Below are positions 21,299 through 27,831 of a stretch of DNA of 64,000 nucleotides, piece after piece (within the stretch, counting starts at the first letter, position 1; each line of letters begins with the position of its first letter). The stretch is taken from IMG/VR virus record IMGVR_UViG_3300044641_006950, positions 21,711 through 85,710 of that record; one strand, 5' to 3'. This DNA comes from a virus. The notes below the pieces were generated by a model. That model searched no databases and was not told the DNA's origin. It saw nothing but the letters and a program-made list of their open reading frames with translations. The position numbers and the translations under genes are program-made.

Positions 21299-23791
21299 TT
21301 ATACTAAACCCCTTGCTACTAAAGATTCTGGATTATATGATACTGTATTTGAAGAAGATATAGTTTTTTGAACAACTGGATATGGCATTGGTATTGGTTG
21401 TCCAGGAAGATAAATTGGTTGCTGAGCAATCAAAATATTAGAAGATCCATCTTCCTCTTCCATTTGCAAATTATTTCTTTCAAGTTGTTTTACATCAAAT
21501 GGAACAGAAGAACTAGAAATTAAATTGCTATTTTTCTTTGCTTTCTCAAGTCTATTATAAAACTCATCCTTTGTTATTGGTTTTCCACTATCATCAAAAT
21601 ATTTGTCTTCTGGCATTCCGAATACATTTGTTCCTCGTATGTAAGTTCCAACCCCATCTATATTTACTGATTTTTTACTTCCAGGTTTAGACTGAATTAC
21701 TGTTTTTAACTTATCTAATTCTTGTTGTTTAACTGTTGATACTATTTTTGGTTTTTGTTGCTGTGGTTGTGTTATTCCTCCTCCACGATAATCAAAATGC
21801 CAAGGTTCTTTTTGTGAAAAATTCATTCCAGAATTATACCAACCATATTTAAGACAATTTTTTTGTGCCCAAGGAATTCCATCTCTAAGATCAATAGCAA
21901 TTCCTCTTTCATGATCGGATGAACCAGGAGGAGCTGCCAGATTTCCCAATCCTCTTATGAATAAATCATAAAGATATGCTTGGACACTACTATCTCTCCA
22001 AGCAGACTCTAAACTAATATTTACACCTTCTTTTTTAGCATCTGCTTTCATTCTCTTATATGCAGCAGCAGCATCTGGTCTTAATCTAAACTCACCTTCG
22101 ACAACAACAGTTTTATCTTTTGATATTATATCACCCTTTTGCTTTGGTGGTGGTGCAGTTGGTGTTACAGTTCCTCTGACTTGTTTGTTAACAACAGCTG
22201 GTTGTAATTTTCCTTGTCTAAACTTTTCAATTTGCGCTCCACCAGGCTCAAATCCAAAAATATGACCATCTCTTTTAACTTCAGTGTCATTTGCTAATTG
22301 ATCATACTTTATATTTTCGCTTGTTGTTGCTCTAAAACTGTCTCTTGGTCCAACAAATGTTCTTGCAGAAGATTGTCTACTAGAATCCAATAAAGCAGAA
22401 GATACTGTTTCTAACTGTTTTTTATTTTTCCCATTTTTTTCAACAAACTCCACCGCAGATTTTTTATCAACTATTTTTCCCCAAGCAGATGGTCCACCAT
22501 AATTGCTCACGGGAGTATATTGACCAGGATCTAAAAGAGCAGTTCTTATACTACCACCAGTTTTCCAAGGATCACCAGGTGCGGCAACTCTATTATATGT
22601 TGCTTGTGCAACATCAGCAGCTCCTTGTGGACTTGATCTTTCAAATAAAGCAACGGTAGATAGTAACCAAAAATCTGGACTATCACTTGAAACACTTACT
22701 TCACCCTGATAATCTCCGCCACTAGGACCACCACCGCCGCCGCCACCTCCACCACCTTTTGTATCCTTATCTCCTTTTAATGATTTTAATTGTCTAAATT
22801 TTTCAATCAAACCTTCAAAAAGATTATTATTATCTTTTTGAACTTTTATGTCAGTTAATTTATTTACAGTATTTGATTTAAATTTTTCAAAAGATTCTGT
22901 GGATTTTATTGCCTTTCTCCCACTTGGTGTTCCTCCAGGTTTACTGAATGGTGATTTTTTAGTTTGAGAAGAAACTTTTCCTCGTGATTTTACATTTGAA
23001 GAAACTGGTTGAACTGTTCCTCCTTTTGCAAAAGACTGAATTGGTAGTGCAGGTGGAGCTACAGGTGATGGTAAAGAAGGTGCAGGAGTTGGTGCTCTTG
23101 GACCAGAATTAAACCTAGAAATATTCTGCTGTCCTTGTTTAATAACTTGAGAAACTGATCTTCCTTGTTTAACAGATGCTTTTCCTCCACCAGCAACAAA
23201 ACTAGAATAATTAGGACTATTTACAGTTGGAGGTGGAGGTCCCATAATGGCATTCCCAACTAGACCTATTAATCCATTTTCAATATTAGTAAGAAGAGAA
23301 TCAATATTATTAATTAATCCTTCAATTTCGTTTCTATTTCTTGCCACAAATTTATATGTTGGTTCTGCTATCATTTGAACAACTTCAATAAGTTTAGATA
23401 ATCCAATTCCAACATTATTAATCGTTTCTTTTATTCCAGTTATAATCCATGGATTATCACCAAAAAACTTCTGCAATCCTTTAATAATTCTTGGAAGATT
23501 GCTAATTAACAATCCTATTAAAACAACACCAAAAAATTCTTTAATTTTATCAAAAATACTAATAGGTGCGCTAAGTAATCTTGATTTTGCAAATTCAATT
23601 GCTGTTGATAATCTTGACGGTTTTTTTTCTATGTTTTGCTCTTTTTCTGCTCTTTTTTGTTTTATTAATTCATTTCTTGCAAAAGAAGATTGATCTAATC
23701 TAAGTTTCTTTAAACTCTTATTATAAGAGAATAAAGTACTTCGAATATTAGTAACGTTTAATTTTAGTTTTTTAACTGATTTTAAGTCCAT
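21299..23791 (-). CDS. tail/hub protein with SleB-like and VanY-like peptidoglycan hydrolase domains, 830 aa
   Basis: Residues 1-60 are a basic coiled coil. A hydrophobic segment lies at about 78-105 (FFGVVLIGLLISNLP). A Pro/Ser-rich linker (about 180-300) and a run of ten Gly (about 346-355) follow. Residues 370-515 look like a SleB-type cell wall hydrolase (LLSTVALFERSSPQGAADVA..NRV ... GQYTPV ... HIFGF), with Glu383 as candidate catalytic acid. Residues 565-670 are VanY/LAS-type: SAWRDSSVQ, SSDHERGIAID (SxHxxGxAxD zinc motif) and EPWHFDY. It would cut peptidoglycan in two ways during entry. It shares N-terminal layout with the 757-residue neighbour. Confidence 0.8.
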   Translation of the reverse strand: MDLKSVKKLKLNVTNIRSTLFSYNKSLKKLRLDQSSFARNELIKQKRAEKEQNIEKKPSRLSTAIEFAKSRLLSAPISIFDKIKEFFGVVLIGLLISNLPRIIKGLQKFFGDNPWIITGIKETINNVGIGLSKLIEVVQMIAEPTYKFVARNRNEIEGLINNIDSLLTNIENGLIGLVGNAIMGPPPPTVNSPNYSSFVAGGGKASVKQGRSVSQVIKQGQQNISRFNSGPRAPTPAPSLPSPVAPPALPIQSFAKGGTVQPVSSNVKSRGKVSSQTKKSPFSKPGGTPSGRKAIKSTESFEKFKSNTVNKLTDIKVQKDNNNLFEGLIEKFRQLKSLKGDKDTKGGGGGGGGGGPSGGDYQGEVSVSSDSPDFWLLSTVALFERSSPQGAADVAQATYNRVAAPGDPWKTGGSIRTALLDPGQYTPVSNYGGPSAWGKIVDKKSAVEFVEKNGKNKKQLETVSSALLDSSRQSSARTFVGPRDSFRATTSENIKYDQLANDTEVKRDGHIFGFEPGGAQIEKFRQGKLQPAVVNKQVRGTVTPTAPPPKQKGDIISKDKTVVVEGEFRLRPDAAAAYKRMKADAKKEGVNISLESAWRDSSVQAYLYDLFIRGLGNLAAPPGSSDHERGIAIDLRDGIPWAQKNCLKYGWYNSGMNFSQKEPWHFDYRGGGITQPQQQKPKIVSTVKQQELDKLKTVIQSKPGSKKSVNIDGVGTYIRGTNVFGMPEDKYFDDSGKPITKDEFYNRLEKAKKNSNLISSSSVPFDVKQLERNNLQMEEEDGSSNILIAQQPIYLPGQPIPMPYPVVQKTISSSNTVSYNPESLVARGLV

Positions 23792-23792
23792 A

Positions 23793-26066
23793 TTAAGTTA
23801 TCATACCGTATTCATATGGAGTCCAAGATACATAAAAATTGTTAGGATCAAAGGAAGATATTGAAGGAACGTCTGTTGCAGAACCACTAGAAGGATCTGG
23901 CATAGAACCTTTCATATTATTTTGTACATTCCCTGCCAAATTAATTGGTGGCATTTGGAATGGTAAAATATTAGTTTTCTTAACTGGTTTTTTAAAAGTT
24001 TCTGGAGATATTTGCTTTGATTTTGCAGTAACAAATTTATTTACAGTTTGATCAACATTTATAAAAGATTGTTCCTGTGATTTATAAGGTATAACTTGAA
24101 GTGGCTGAGGTTTTACTGGTTCTAATGGTGTTTGTGGAGGGGTTGGTTGGAAAACTGTAGGAATTCTTGGTGTTGGTTTTGTAGAAGGTTCTTGTGATTG
24201 TCTGGATTCTCCTGTAGGTTGAGTATTGGTTGGGGAAGGAGAAGGTGAAGAAGAAGGAGAAGGAGTTGATGGAGAAGTAGTTGGTGAAGGTAAAGGGGAA
24301 TCTTTACTTACTGGTTCAATTAATTCGTTTAATCTAGAATCTCCTGGCGGAATATCAGATGGTCCTTCCTTTCCAGTTCCTTCTTGTGCTGGAATATTAC
24401 CAGTTTTTCCTGGACCAAAAATACTTGAATTGTTTTTTAATTCTTTAACTTTTTCTTTTTGAATTAAACCTTTTAATTCTTTATTAAAAGCATCTAGTAA
24501 TTTATTAAATTTTTCAGTAGTTGAAAGTTGAGAAAAATTATTTCTTTCTTGTAGGTCAATAGCAGACTGAAATGCCTGCCACATTCTACCAGCGTTATCA
24601 TTAATATCTTTCAATAGTGGTCTGAATAACATTGCAGCAGAAGTACGAATAACCTCTTCACCAGGAGCAAGCATAGTTGGAACACTATCTACATTTCCAG
24701 ATCCTGGACCACCCACTGTTCCTCCTTGGGAGAAAGTTGGTAATAATGAACAAGTATCACACTTTTTCTTTGGTGCTTCTTTTGGTATTGTTCCACCTTT
24801 TGACGCAGCAACTGCCATGCCGCGTCTTGTCATTACCTGAATTAATTTTGGTAATATCCTTAATAGATTTCCTACGGCAAGGGGGTCACCAAATGGAACT
24901 GGTCCGTCTAGAAAAGTTAATAAAGCAGATGTTTTTAGAATTACTTGAATTTCCGGATCATTTGATAATGATCTAACTTGATCCCATGTTTTTGATAGTT
25001 GCTGAGAACTTTGTGCGGGAGTTGATCCTGCTGCCTGCTGGGCCGCTTGCACGTTTGTTGCAGAATAACCACCAGCAGGAGCACCTTGCCTTGATTGACG
25101 ATATTGTTGTTGTAATGTTGGTCTTTGAGTTGTAGGTGGTACTACTGGCGGAACAGCAGGTATTGGAGTTGGAGGTGCTGGAACAAGTAATCCTTTTGCT
25201 ACATTTTTAATATGATTTGTTAATTGCTGATTAGCAATAAATGCTGCGATTGAAGCAGCAACAAATCTAGCAGAGAAAGCAGGATTTCCCATGCACTGTA
25301 GTAATGGTCTACAAGGATCACCTCCTCCACCGCCACCAGGACCACTAGTTTTTTTACTTTTATTAAGAAGATCCCAACCTTTCCTTAATAAATCAACACC
25401 TTTTTTAAGACCACTTACAACTCGATAAACTTTATATAAAAATCCTAATAATTTACCAAGAACTAATACTCTAACAATCCATCTCCAGTGCTCTGCAATA
25501 AAACTGAAAAATTTTCCTACTTTTTCACGATTTTTTGGATCTTGTAACCATTTCCAAGCACTATTAACGAGTATTCCAGTAAGAAGAATACTAAAAAATT
25601 CAAGTATTTTACTAAATATAGATCTTGCTGGTGCAGTTACTTTACTAAAAGCTTTTCCAATTATTTGATTAATTTTATTTGGTTCTTCAATACTCTGTTC
25701 TTTTGCTCCTATTCTTCTTTTTTTAGCGGAAGCTTTTGACGCAGCGAGTGCTTGTTTCTTTTCTGCTTCTATTGATGAAAAATATGAGAAAAGTTGTTTT
25801 TGTACTCCTTCTAAAACTCTATTTGTTATTGTTAAAGTAGAATTTATAATTCCATCATTTTTTGTAGATTGTTCTACTTTAGTTTGCAATAACTCAGTTT
25901 GAGCAACAATATTTTGTTGCTTTGGTTGAAGAAATCTAAAAGGTGATATTTTAAATTTCTGCTCTACTTGTTGAGAAACGTTGGAAAACACAGAAGAAGA
26001 AACTGTCTTCTTCCCCATTTTAGGTACTGATGGTGCTTTAAAAAATGGTTGTTTTCCTATTGCCAC
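23793..26066 (-). CDS. tail tape-measure candidate, 757 aa
   Basis: The start is a GTG at 26066, placed right after the stop of the upstream small ORF. The protein has a coiled-coil N-terminus (about 60-130), then hydrophobic segments at about 145-170 (ILEFFSILLTGILVNSAW) and 190-215 (WIVRVLVLGKLLGFLYKVY), a Gly-rich linker, a hydrophobic alanine-rich segment (ARFVAASIAAFIANQQ) and a Pro/Ser/Thr-rich C-terminal third. Long size, coiled coil, membrane-like segments and position just after the gp26 chaperone pair fit a tape-measure protein, but no direct homology to T4 gp29 is visible. A hub component without ruler function is the alternative. Confidence 0.5.
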   Translation of the reverse strand: MAIGKQPFFKAPSVPKMGKKTVSSSVFSNVSQQVEQKFKISPFRFLQPKQQNIVAQTELLQTKVEQSTKNDGIINSTLTITNRVLEGVQKQLFSYFSSIEAEKKQALAASKASAKKRRIGAKEQSIEEPNKINQIIGKAFSKVTAPARSIFSKILEFFSILLTGILVNSAWKWLQDPKNREKVGKFFSFIAEHWRWIVRVLVLGKLLGFLYKVYRVVSGLKKGVDLLRKGWDLLNKSKKTSGPGGGGGGDPCRPLLQCMGNPAFSARFVAASIAAFIANQQLTNHIKNVAKGLLVPAPPTPIPAVPPVVPPTTQRPTLQQQYRQSRQGAPAGGYSATNVQAAQQAAGSTPAQSSQQLSKTWDQVRSLSNDPEIQVILKTSALLTFLDGPVPFGDPLAVGNLLRILPKLIQVMTRRGMAVAASKGGTIPKEAPKKKCDTCSLLPTFSQGGTVGGPGSGNVDSVPTMLAPGEEVIRTSAAMLFRPLLKDINDNAGRMWQAFQSAIDLQERNNFSQLSTTEKFNKLLDAFNKELKGLIQKEKVKELKNNSSIFGPGKTGNIPAQEGTGKEGPSDIPPGDSRLNELIEPVSKDSPLPSPTTSPSTPSPSSSPSPSPTNTQPTGESRQSQEPSTKPTPRIPTVFQPTPPQTPLEPVKPQPLQVIPYKSQEQSFINVDQTVNKFVTAKSKQISPETFKKPVKKTNILPFQMPPINLAGNVQNNMKGSMPDPSSGSATDVPSISSFDPNNFYVSWTPYEYGMIT

Positions 26067-26237
26067 TTACTGCCTCTGCTTTGCGTTTTCTTCTTCAATA
26101 TATTGTTGAAGGAGAGATACATAAACTTCTCTTTCCCAAGGAATCATGTTATCAAGTTCTGTCAAAGAGTATTTATGATGCTGCATCAAGGAAAAATTAA
26201 TTCTATAATATGCCTCAAGACTAGTATGAGACATCAT
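26067..26237 (-). CDS. small -1-frame ORF after gp26, tail-assembly-chaperone extension (GT-like)
   Basis: Tandem ATGs at 26237 and 26234 open a frame of 55-56 residues (MSHTSLEAYYRINFSLMQHH ... LDNMIPWEREVYVSLLQQYI). It lies in the -1 frame of gp26 and is open upstream through the U UUU UUC heptamer at 26243-26249. The segment IPWEREVYV is typical of the C-terminal parts of tail assembly chaperones made by -1 frameshifting. It could be translated alone (ATG ATG overlapping the gp26 stop) or as a gp26 fusion. The stop is followed at once by the GTG of the tape-measure candidate. Confidence 0.75.
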   Translation of the reverse strand: MMSHTSLEAYYRINFSLMQHHKYSLTELDNMIPWEREVYVSLLQQYIEEENAKQRQ

Positions 26238-26959
26238 TAGCTGAAAAAACTTGCTAACCCTTCCAATACGATTTCATTGTCCTTTTTAGTTTTGGGATTT
26301 TTAATTACTACCTTATGAGTTAACTTTGGCATAGTTGTAAAGAAAGATTCAATTTCTTTAAACTGTTTGGTATTCATTTGCTCTACAAATTCTACCAATT
26401 CTTTCTTGGTACAATCAGAAGCCGACCAACACTCCTCTGGTGTATATACCATATCAATGCAAGAAACAATCATATTCAAAGATTTATCTACATCAATATT
26501 AGATTCTTGAAATTCAAAATTATTTTCAACAAATTGTTCCAATGAAGGATACTTCATCTTCATTGACAATTCATCGTCTATCTTAATGATATTAGAATGA
26601 TTTTTTTCTTTGTGAACTTTAATCGTATCTAAATCAATTTCAGTAGATACTTGTGTTTCTCCATCGTCTGGACAGGTTACATTAACTTCTATTTTTTCAC
26701 CAATTGATTTTGCTCTAACGTTTAAGAAAATGTATTCAATATCAAAAGTTGCAAGTTCTGATATACTTATACCTTTTGTTTGAATACATTCGCTTAGTAT
26801 CTGGACAATAGAATCTGTGATTGATTTCATATCTTCAGATTCTAATGCCATGATTAGAATTTTTTCTTCTCTTACCAAAAAAGGACGATATTTAATCTTT
26901 TTTCCAGTAGAGGGAATTTCCAACTCATAAGTTGGTGTTGTAATTTTTGGTAAAGGCAT
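26237..26959 (-). CDS. 26: baseplate hub assembly chaperone gp26 (T4 gp26/gp51 family)
   Basis: The 240-residue protein starts MPLPKITTPTYELEIPSTGK followed by KIKYRPFLVREEKILIMALE, the hallmark of the T4 gp26/gp51 baseplate family (STGKKIKFRPFxVKEEKxLLxAxE). A conserved middle contains VRAKSIGEKIEVNVTCPDDG. Family members are assembly chaperones of the hub rather than abundant virion parts. The last sense codons AGT TTT TTC AGC before TAA carry a slippery site that leads into the -1-frame ORF at 26067. A CATAAATA late motif lies 27 bases upstream. Confidence 0.85.
   Translation of the reverse strand: MPLPKITTPTYELEIPSTGKKIKYRPFLVREEKILIMALESEDMKSITDSIVQILSECIQTKGISISELATFDIEYIFLNVRAKSIGEKIEVNVTCPDDGETQVSTEIDLDTIKVHKEKNHSNIIKIDDELSMKMKYPSLEQFVENNFEFQESNIDVDKSLNMIVSCIDMVYTPEECWSASDCTKKELVEFVEQMNTKQFKEIESFFTTMPKLTHKVVIKNPKTKKDNEIVLEGLASFFS
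26243..26249 (-). other. candidate programmed -1 frameshift site (T TTT TTC)
   Basis: Read on the minus strand and in the gp26 frame the bases are T TTT TTC, a canonical X XXY YYZ heptamer, two codons before the gp26 TAA. A slip of one base back gives CAG CTA ATG ATG TCT and the frame stays open for 58 codons. No strong downstream stem was found by eye. Confidence 0.7.
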
Positions 26960-26985: not shown

Positions 26986-26993
26986 TATTTATG
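26986..26993 (-). promoter_or_regulatory. T4-type late promoter, CATAAATA
   Basis: Minus-strand CATAAATA, 27 bases upstream of gp26, overlapping the end of gp54. Confidence 0.45.
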
Positions 26994-27831
26994 GTACTGG
27001 TGGTAAAGCATATTTAGTCTGATATACCGTATTGCTTACTGTTTTAGTAATAACATCTCCAGCAATGATAAGTTGAACTGTCCAAGTTCCATCAGAATTT
27101 TTAAGAGCACCACCAACAACTGGCGGTCCTGCAATTTCTCTATACAATCTATAACGATCATAATTCATTGTTACCGTTACTTTCATAACTTCTGCTTCAC
27201 CATAAGTAACAGGAATAGAGGCAATAGATTTTGGAAATGCATTAATTAATTGATATGTTATATTTGTGGTTCCTTCAACATCCCAGTTATTTTCAAACTT
27301 TTTAATATAAACTCCAGATTGATTTTTATAAAATTTTGGATAATTAAATCTTCTATAATAAGGATTAATATTATTATCGTATAAACTTGGTTCATCTGGA
27401 ACAGGATCTCCAGTTGATGGATCCTTTTTGCTATTTCCTCCAGAAACATAATCCATCCATGCCTCAAAAAATGTTAAAACATAATAGTTACTATCAACAT
27501 AAAAACTAAAATCAATATCGGTATTAATTCTAGTATGTGCAAATTCTTGAGCAACTCCCATAAAATTATCTTTTACTTCTGCAGTTGCATAAGTAGAGGC
27601 AGGAAGATTTGCGTCAAAACACAATAAAGAAAGTTTTTTCTTAAATGTTGCAGTCCAATCAATTCCATAATACAAAGTGGTATTTTTTAGGTGTTCTAAA
27701 AAAGGTGTTGTAGAACCACTAGTTCCCCATCCATTTTCAATAAAAACTTGAAATTGATTAGTTCTCGCAACGTTGCCAAATTGCTCTCTACCACTTAGCA
27801 TTGTGAGAGCATTAATTGACGGGATTGGCAT
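26989..27831 (-). CDS. 54: baseplate tail-tube initiator, gp54-like
   Basis: The 280-residue protein has the tail-tube fold signature shared by T4 gp19, gp48 and gp54. It has an N-terminal segment RTNQFQVFIENGW, a central FAHTRINTDIDFSFYVDSNYY, and near the end ITYQLINAFPKSI...YGEAEVMKVTVTMNYDRY (the NAFPKSI...AExxxxTVTxxYDxY motif). It is too long for the tube subunit gp19 (about 163 residues) and lies in the hub region, so the gp54 initiator is the best assignment. It is transcribed divergently from gp4, with back-to-back late motifs between them. Confidence 0.7.
   Translation of the reverse strand: MPIPSINALTMLSGREQFGNVARTNQFQVFIENGWGTSGSTTPFLEHLKNTTLYYGIDWTATFKKKLSLLCFDANLPASTYATAEVKDNFMGVAQEFAHTRINTDIDFSFYVDSNYYVLTFFEAWMDYVSGGNSKKDPSTGDPVPDEPSLYDNNINPYYRRFNYPKFYKNQSGVYIKKFENNWDVEGTTNITYQLINAFPKSIASIPVTYGEAEVMKVTVTMNYDRYRLYREIAGPPVVGGALKNSDGTWTVQLIIAGDVITKTVSNTVYQTKYALPPVP

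Follow-up and report, generated by a model that had tools for sequence, protein, structure and literature searches.

Does the gp26 gene of this virus end at its stop codon only, or would some ribosomes leave its frame just before the stop and run on into the small reading frame that follows, making a second product? We addressed this question in a window of 64,000 nucleotides, taken from an 85.7-kb virus record; among named viruses, Synechococcus and Prochlorococcus myoviruses are the closest to it at the DNA level. The sequence comparisons described below make it very probable that a -1 frameshift at the end of gp26 yields a gp26-gp51 fusion, which would be a second, longer tail assembly chaperone.

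The gp26 end and the overlapping -1 frame

The gp26 gene lies on the minus strand (26237..26959), as do its slip site and flanking elements, the gp51 ORF and the genes for the 757-aa and 830-aa proteins described below. Its product of 240 aa, the candidate short form (TAC-N or G-like), matches PF12322 (T4_baseplate, E 2.4e-71) and the baseplate hub family phrog_150 (E 2.6e-77), and it is the single PF12322 gene in the virus record. The gene before it encodes a tail tube-like protein (26989-27831; Phage_TTP_2, E 5.9e-18). Direct reading confirmed that the 3' end of gp26 is AGT TTT TTC AGC TAA, as the first-pass annotation had noticed, with a slippery heptamer T TTT TTC (26243..26249) in gp26 phase and the 0-frame stop TAA at 26237..26239. 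The X XXY YYZ phase is the right one for a -1 slip.

In the -1 frame the sequence reads FFQLMMSHTSLEAYYRINF...IPWEREVYVSLLQQYIEEENAKQRQ, which gives 60 residues from the slip codons onwards (26067..26248). The first-pass annotation had described this frame as 58 codons reaching the GTG of a long downstream protein. The length holds when it is counted after the slip codons; the GTG (26064-26066) adjoins the -1 frame stop TAA (26067-26069) and is not included in it. The extension, which would be the gp51 or T-like domain, matches the baseplate hub assembly catalyst family phrog_634 (E 7.8e-28) and the C-terminal part of phrog_150. The latter match was a first hint that both parts are fused in some phages. 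The usual annotation in relatives is a separate gene, gp51. The window allows this as well, since its junction carries TAATGATG (ATGATG), and an ATG-started ORF of 56 aa can be read at 26067..26237. An Rfam scan of positions 25900-26500 gave no match above chance, and an NCBIfam search gave no useful matches.

The window is AT-rich, and its 50 genes contain 164 X XXY YYZ heptamers in phase, of which 15 have the form T TTT TTN. Among these 164, the heptamer at the gp26 end is the only one that opens a -1 frame of more than 23 codons.

Conservation of the probable slip site

The first-pass annotation had proposed aligning the locus across cyanomyoviruses and asking whether heptamer, phase and -1 ORF are kept. 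The heptamer was in phase in 79/79 close homologues, in which the codons on either side, the gp26 stop and the surroundings of the ATG varied. We then considered a broad set of 353 loci, the window among them, which came from six further viral-contig scans and from isolates and was searched in all six frames with profiles of the gp26 and gp51 domains. Searches for related loci with Stenotrophomonas and Vibrio queries contributed two close loci each only. The gp51 domain lay in the -1 frame of gp26 in 347/347 same-strand loci, and T TTT TT[C/T] was present in 327 of them, the run ending in C in 92% of loci. The remaining six loci of the broad set were two T4-type loci with another arrangement (RB49 and CF1) and four with no detectable domain. 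Keeping of the heptamer in 79/79 close and 327/347 broad homologues removes a chance origin.

Two outcomes had been named beforehand as refuting the idea. A small ORF in another frame was found in none of the 347 same-strand loci. Loss of the heptamer with the ORFs kept was not general; it was seen in the 20 loci without heptamer. Two of these are Ackermannviridae isolates and the other 18 are contigs that a search with one of the two isolates brought up; even in these 20 loci the -1 frame was kept.

To place these counts on a phylogeny, we used a tree of 196 non-redundant loci drawn from the heptamer-bearing loci, so that only the 20 Ackermannviridae-type loci were left out. Parsimony on this tree gave 0 changes at the six T positions of the run, two of which are wobble positions, compared with 28-91 changes at wobble positions up to 42 nt upstream of the heptamer. 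The residue preceding Phe-Phe was S, D, N, A or G, and the third base of its codon was T in every case. Probability figures from such codon choice treat loci as independent, and the tree-based count is the fairer measure. On the 3' side of the heptamer the most variable positions were mostly third positions of the -1 frame. Third-position variability thus changes frame at the heptamer, which implies that the selected coding frame switches there, upstream of any gp51 ATG. The 0-frame stop was TAA, TAG or TGA in relatives and stood 3, 6, 9 or 27 nt past the second slip codon; in Mosig it was displaced by several codons with the heptamer retained. An in-phase slippery motif precedes the 0-frame stop, and it is conserved beyond protein constraint.

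Candidate stimulators and gp51 start codons

Upstream of the slip site, relatives carried a GGAGG-like element (GGAGG in most) that ends about 8-9 nt before the heptamer. The Glu codon at this Shine-Dalgarno (SD)-like element was GAG in 117/143 cases, compared with 30% elsewhere, and the pairing energy with the anti-SD averaged -6.2 kcal/mol, compared with -4.3 kcal/mol after synonymous recoding. A review places SD stimulation of -1 frameshifting at a spacing of 9-14 nt (PMC5009743). Enrichment was found even in loci without a start codon (57% vs 25%), and the element is therefore not merely a gp51 initiation signal. The copy in the window (26258..26264) is a weaker variant, GGAAGGG, with GAA as the Glu codon.

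Downstream of the heptamer, a 38-nt segment had a mean minimum free energy across loci of -7.87 kcal/mol, compared with -2.93 kcal/mol under synonymous recoding, and 40-nt windows compared with dinucleotide shuffles gave a mean z of -2.6. The hairpin was weaker in the start-less group (-4.81 vs -2.24). In the window the candidate 3' stimulator (26210..26234) is an 8-bp hairpin, ATGTCTCA and TGAGGCAT around a 9-nt loop, and its 42-nt segment had a z of -1.52, below the family average strength. We also tried a single consensus stem. Its register, i+j=54, had a mean longest run of 4.58 compared with 3.08 in the synonymous null, and was common to only part of the loci, with at least 6 pairs in only 29%. 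We therefore claim no one consensus stem, and the hairpin claim rests on energy relative to the synonymous and dinucleotide nulls. At family level, an SD-like element upstream and structure downstream thus accompany the slip site, and both are weaker in the window.

These elements also bear on where slippage would take place. RNA polymerase is known to slip on long T runs, with U7 mentioned (PMC4066793), and the junction could in principle arise by transcriptional slippage on the T run instead of ribosomal slippage. However, the codon phase is conserved and a C closes the run in 92% of loci, and the SD-like element and hairpin suit ribosomal slippage. We consider slippage by the polymerase extremely unlikely.

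Another explanation is that gp51 forms a separate gene, translated from an ATG of its own when ribosomes terminate at the gp26 stop and reinitiate, with coupling of the usual kind and no fusion. The TAATGATG at the window junction fits this, as does an ATG near the junction in 107/196 loci; a further 21/196 had GTG or TTG only. However, ATG, GTG and TTG were all absent between the heptamer and the gp51 core in 68/196 loci, and the fusion is therefore the sole plausible product there. Moreover, coupling does not need frozen wobble bases at the slip site. Also against it, the -1 coding constraint begins upstream of the ATG, and the SD-like enrichment remains without any start codon. We rejected the model of coupling alone on account of the start-less loci and the frozen wobble bases, and regard it as highly improbable.

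It is also conceivable that both products are made, the fusion by frameshifting and, in ATG-bearing lineages, free gp51 in addition. This is compatible with the frameshift reading, and a Met near the junction was frequent across one large section of the set and missing from other sections. Against it, free T is not known to be required in lambda, and we regard a second, free product as possible but rather unlikely.

The state of public annotation can be set beside these counts. In S-CAM1 (L081) there is only a TTG, inside the domain, and gp51 is unannotated. Frameshifting would account for gp51 being missing or mis-started in many cyanophage annotations. In S-CAM3 (L354, 1537-1671) and Mosig (L082, 2549-2683), public gp51 was annotated from internal codons, which truncates the conserved domain. 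Outside the cyanophages, the distant Desulfovibrio phage 7757 (L094) has one gene with the domain in the -1 frame, T TTT TTC and no start codon before the domain.

Heptamer, phase and -1 ORF are conserved, and roughly one lineage in three has lost the start codons; together these findings strongly support the -1 frameshift, and with it the parallel to lambda G/GT drawn in the first-pass annotation. Several points speak against it: the ATGATG of the window allows an independent gp51, the SD-like element and hairpin of the window are below family average, the Ackermannviridae-type loci have no heptamer, and the PDB match of a gp26 model to the HK97 chaperone is weak. In the mechanism that we propose, gp26 and the small gp51 ORF would form one tail assembly chaperone gene. 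Most ribosomes would halt at the gp26 stop and release the short form (G-like, TAC-N). A fraction would slip by -1 on T TTT TTC, where the tRNA-Phe in the P and A sites could re-pair on TTT TTT, aided by the upstream SD-like element and the downstream hairpin, and would go on to make the gp26-gp51 fusion (GT-like, TAC-NC). If the roles are as in lambda, the short form may wrap the tape measure protein, and the extension may bring in tail tube subunits. Slippage in infected cells, the slippage rate and the chaperone action are all points that we infer. For S-PM2, the junction peptide of the fusion is predicted to span SFF-RISMFYNNLENYYR.

Related chaperone systems and neighbouring genes

Vladimirov, Gautam and Davidson (2022, Virology 566:9-15) are said to have given T4 genes 26 and 51 roles as tail assembly chaperones, and reportedly found frameshifting conserved in several T4-like groups. 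Two later papers refer to this work. According to the PRFect paper, some T4-like phages do without frameshifting and have two chaperone genes, a short one and a long, fused one (PMC10274946, citing Vladimirov, Gautam and Davidson 2022), and the Adele paper credits Vladimirov 2022 with poly-T slip sites in T4-like TAC-N genes (PMC12846349). Those chaperones reportedly belong to the same gene family as gp26 of the window; the two citing papers credit them with poly-T -1 slip sites and with short and long copies in some phages. The kind of system that we describe is therefore already known, since T4-like chaperones and poly-T signals are credited to that work. Details that may be new are the gp51 loci without a start codon, the stimulators in dnaX-like layout and a tetramer variant.

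In the T4-type phages RB49 and CF1, gp26 and gp51 each matched PF12322 (E 1e-43 to 3e-62), and their gp51 consists of this gp26-like part followed by the C-terminal domain found in the -1 frame of the window. The domains are thus the same as in the window; they are carried there by two separate, divergent genes, whereas the window has one frameshifted gene. Of the phages checked, all 12 with the same-strand -1 arrangement had a single PF12322 gene, whereas RB49 and CF1 had two each, as expected if phages obtain the long form through a frameshift or, alternatively, from a second gene. In the window, the short form likewise has PF12322 and the long form would have PF12322 plus the gp51 C-terminal domain. 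In Citrobacter phage CF1 (L091, 2620-3783), the gene at the gp27 position is labelled 'tape measure chaperone'; this label looks shifted by one gene from gp51, because of the gene order and the PF12322 result.

The Ackermannviridae-type gp26 homologues (L087, L259-L276 and L089) carry a gp51-like domain in the -1 frame and no X XXY YYZ heptamer. Their gp26 ends, near-invariant ATT TTC ATT TAA in 19 loci and CTT TTT CGC TAA in one, hold a U_UUY tetramer. Heptamer frameshift, tetramer frameshift and duplicated genes would form a natural series in which to study how phages maintain the ratio of short to long chaperone. On balance, we favour the view that for a large share of the marine T4-like phages 'gp51' would not be a gene and would represent just the C-terminal half of what frameshifting yields. 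Its production would be driven by a full dnaX-like cassette, consisting of the SD-like element, T TTT TTC and the hairpin, and Ackermannviridae-type phages would arrive at the equivalent -1 fusion through the tetramer, with no heptamer.

Lambda G/GT also uses a -1 frameshift (PMC5009743). Lambda and the conserved frameshift of Xu, Hendrix and Duda 2004 have a short chaperone and a -1 fusion ahead of the tape measure gene; the same arrangement is proposed for the window, where the gene that follows is a candidate tape measure gene. The window differs from lambda in its heptamer, T TTT TTC, and in the larger gp26 (240 aa) with PF12322, and the likeness observed is one of layout. With the -1 cassette of Escherichia coli dnaX it shares the layout of upstream SD-like element, heptamer and downstream stem-loop; dnaX has another heptamer, and its shift gives a shorter product, whereas that of gp26 would give a longer one. 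An AlphaFold2 model of gp26 (pLDDT 84) matched other gp26 proteins in a viral structure library. Compared with the PDB, it gave a weak, non-significant match to 2ob9_B, the tail assembly chaperone of HK97 (E 2.7, prob 0.51, 61 columns), the only one with prob >0.5 among the PDB matches listed; a search of the PDB with the gp26 sequence gave no match.

Directly after gp51 comes the gene for the 757-aa protein (23793..26066). It has a DSVPTMLAPGE motif and a match of about 50 residues to the tape measure protein (TMP) family phrog_25241 (E 3.7e-7). In the TMP-family comparison, the proteins at the same position in S-PM2, phiM12 and ValKK3 matched TMP families in part, and those of P-SSM2 and S-SRM01 gave no match. 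Position and the weak family match make it plausible that the 757-aa protein is the tape measure, as the first-pass annotation had supposed. Next to it, an 830-aa protein (21299-23791) has a VanY-type D-Ala-D-Ala carboxypeptidase domain (Pfam E 5.8e-13) and is possibly a tail-borne peptidoglycan hydrolase. A TMP-family match covers the same part of this protein as the VanY-type domain, and the protein may also serve in the hub or as the tape.
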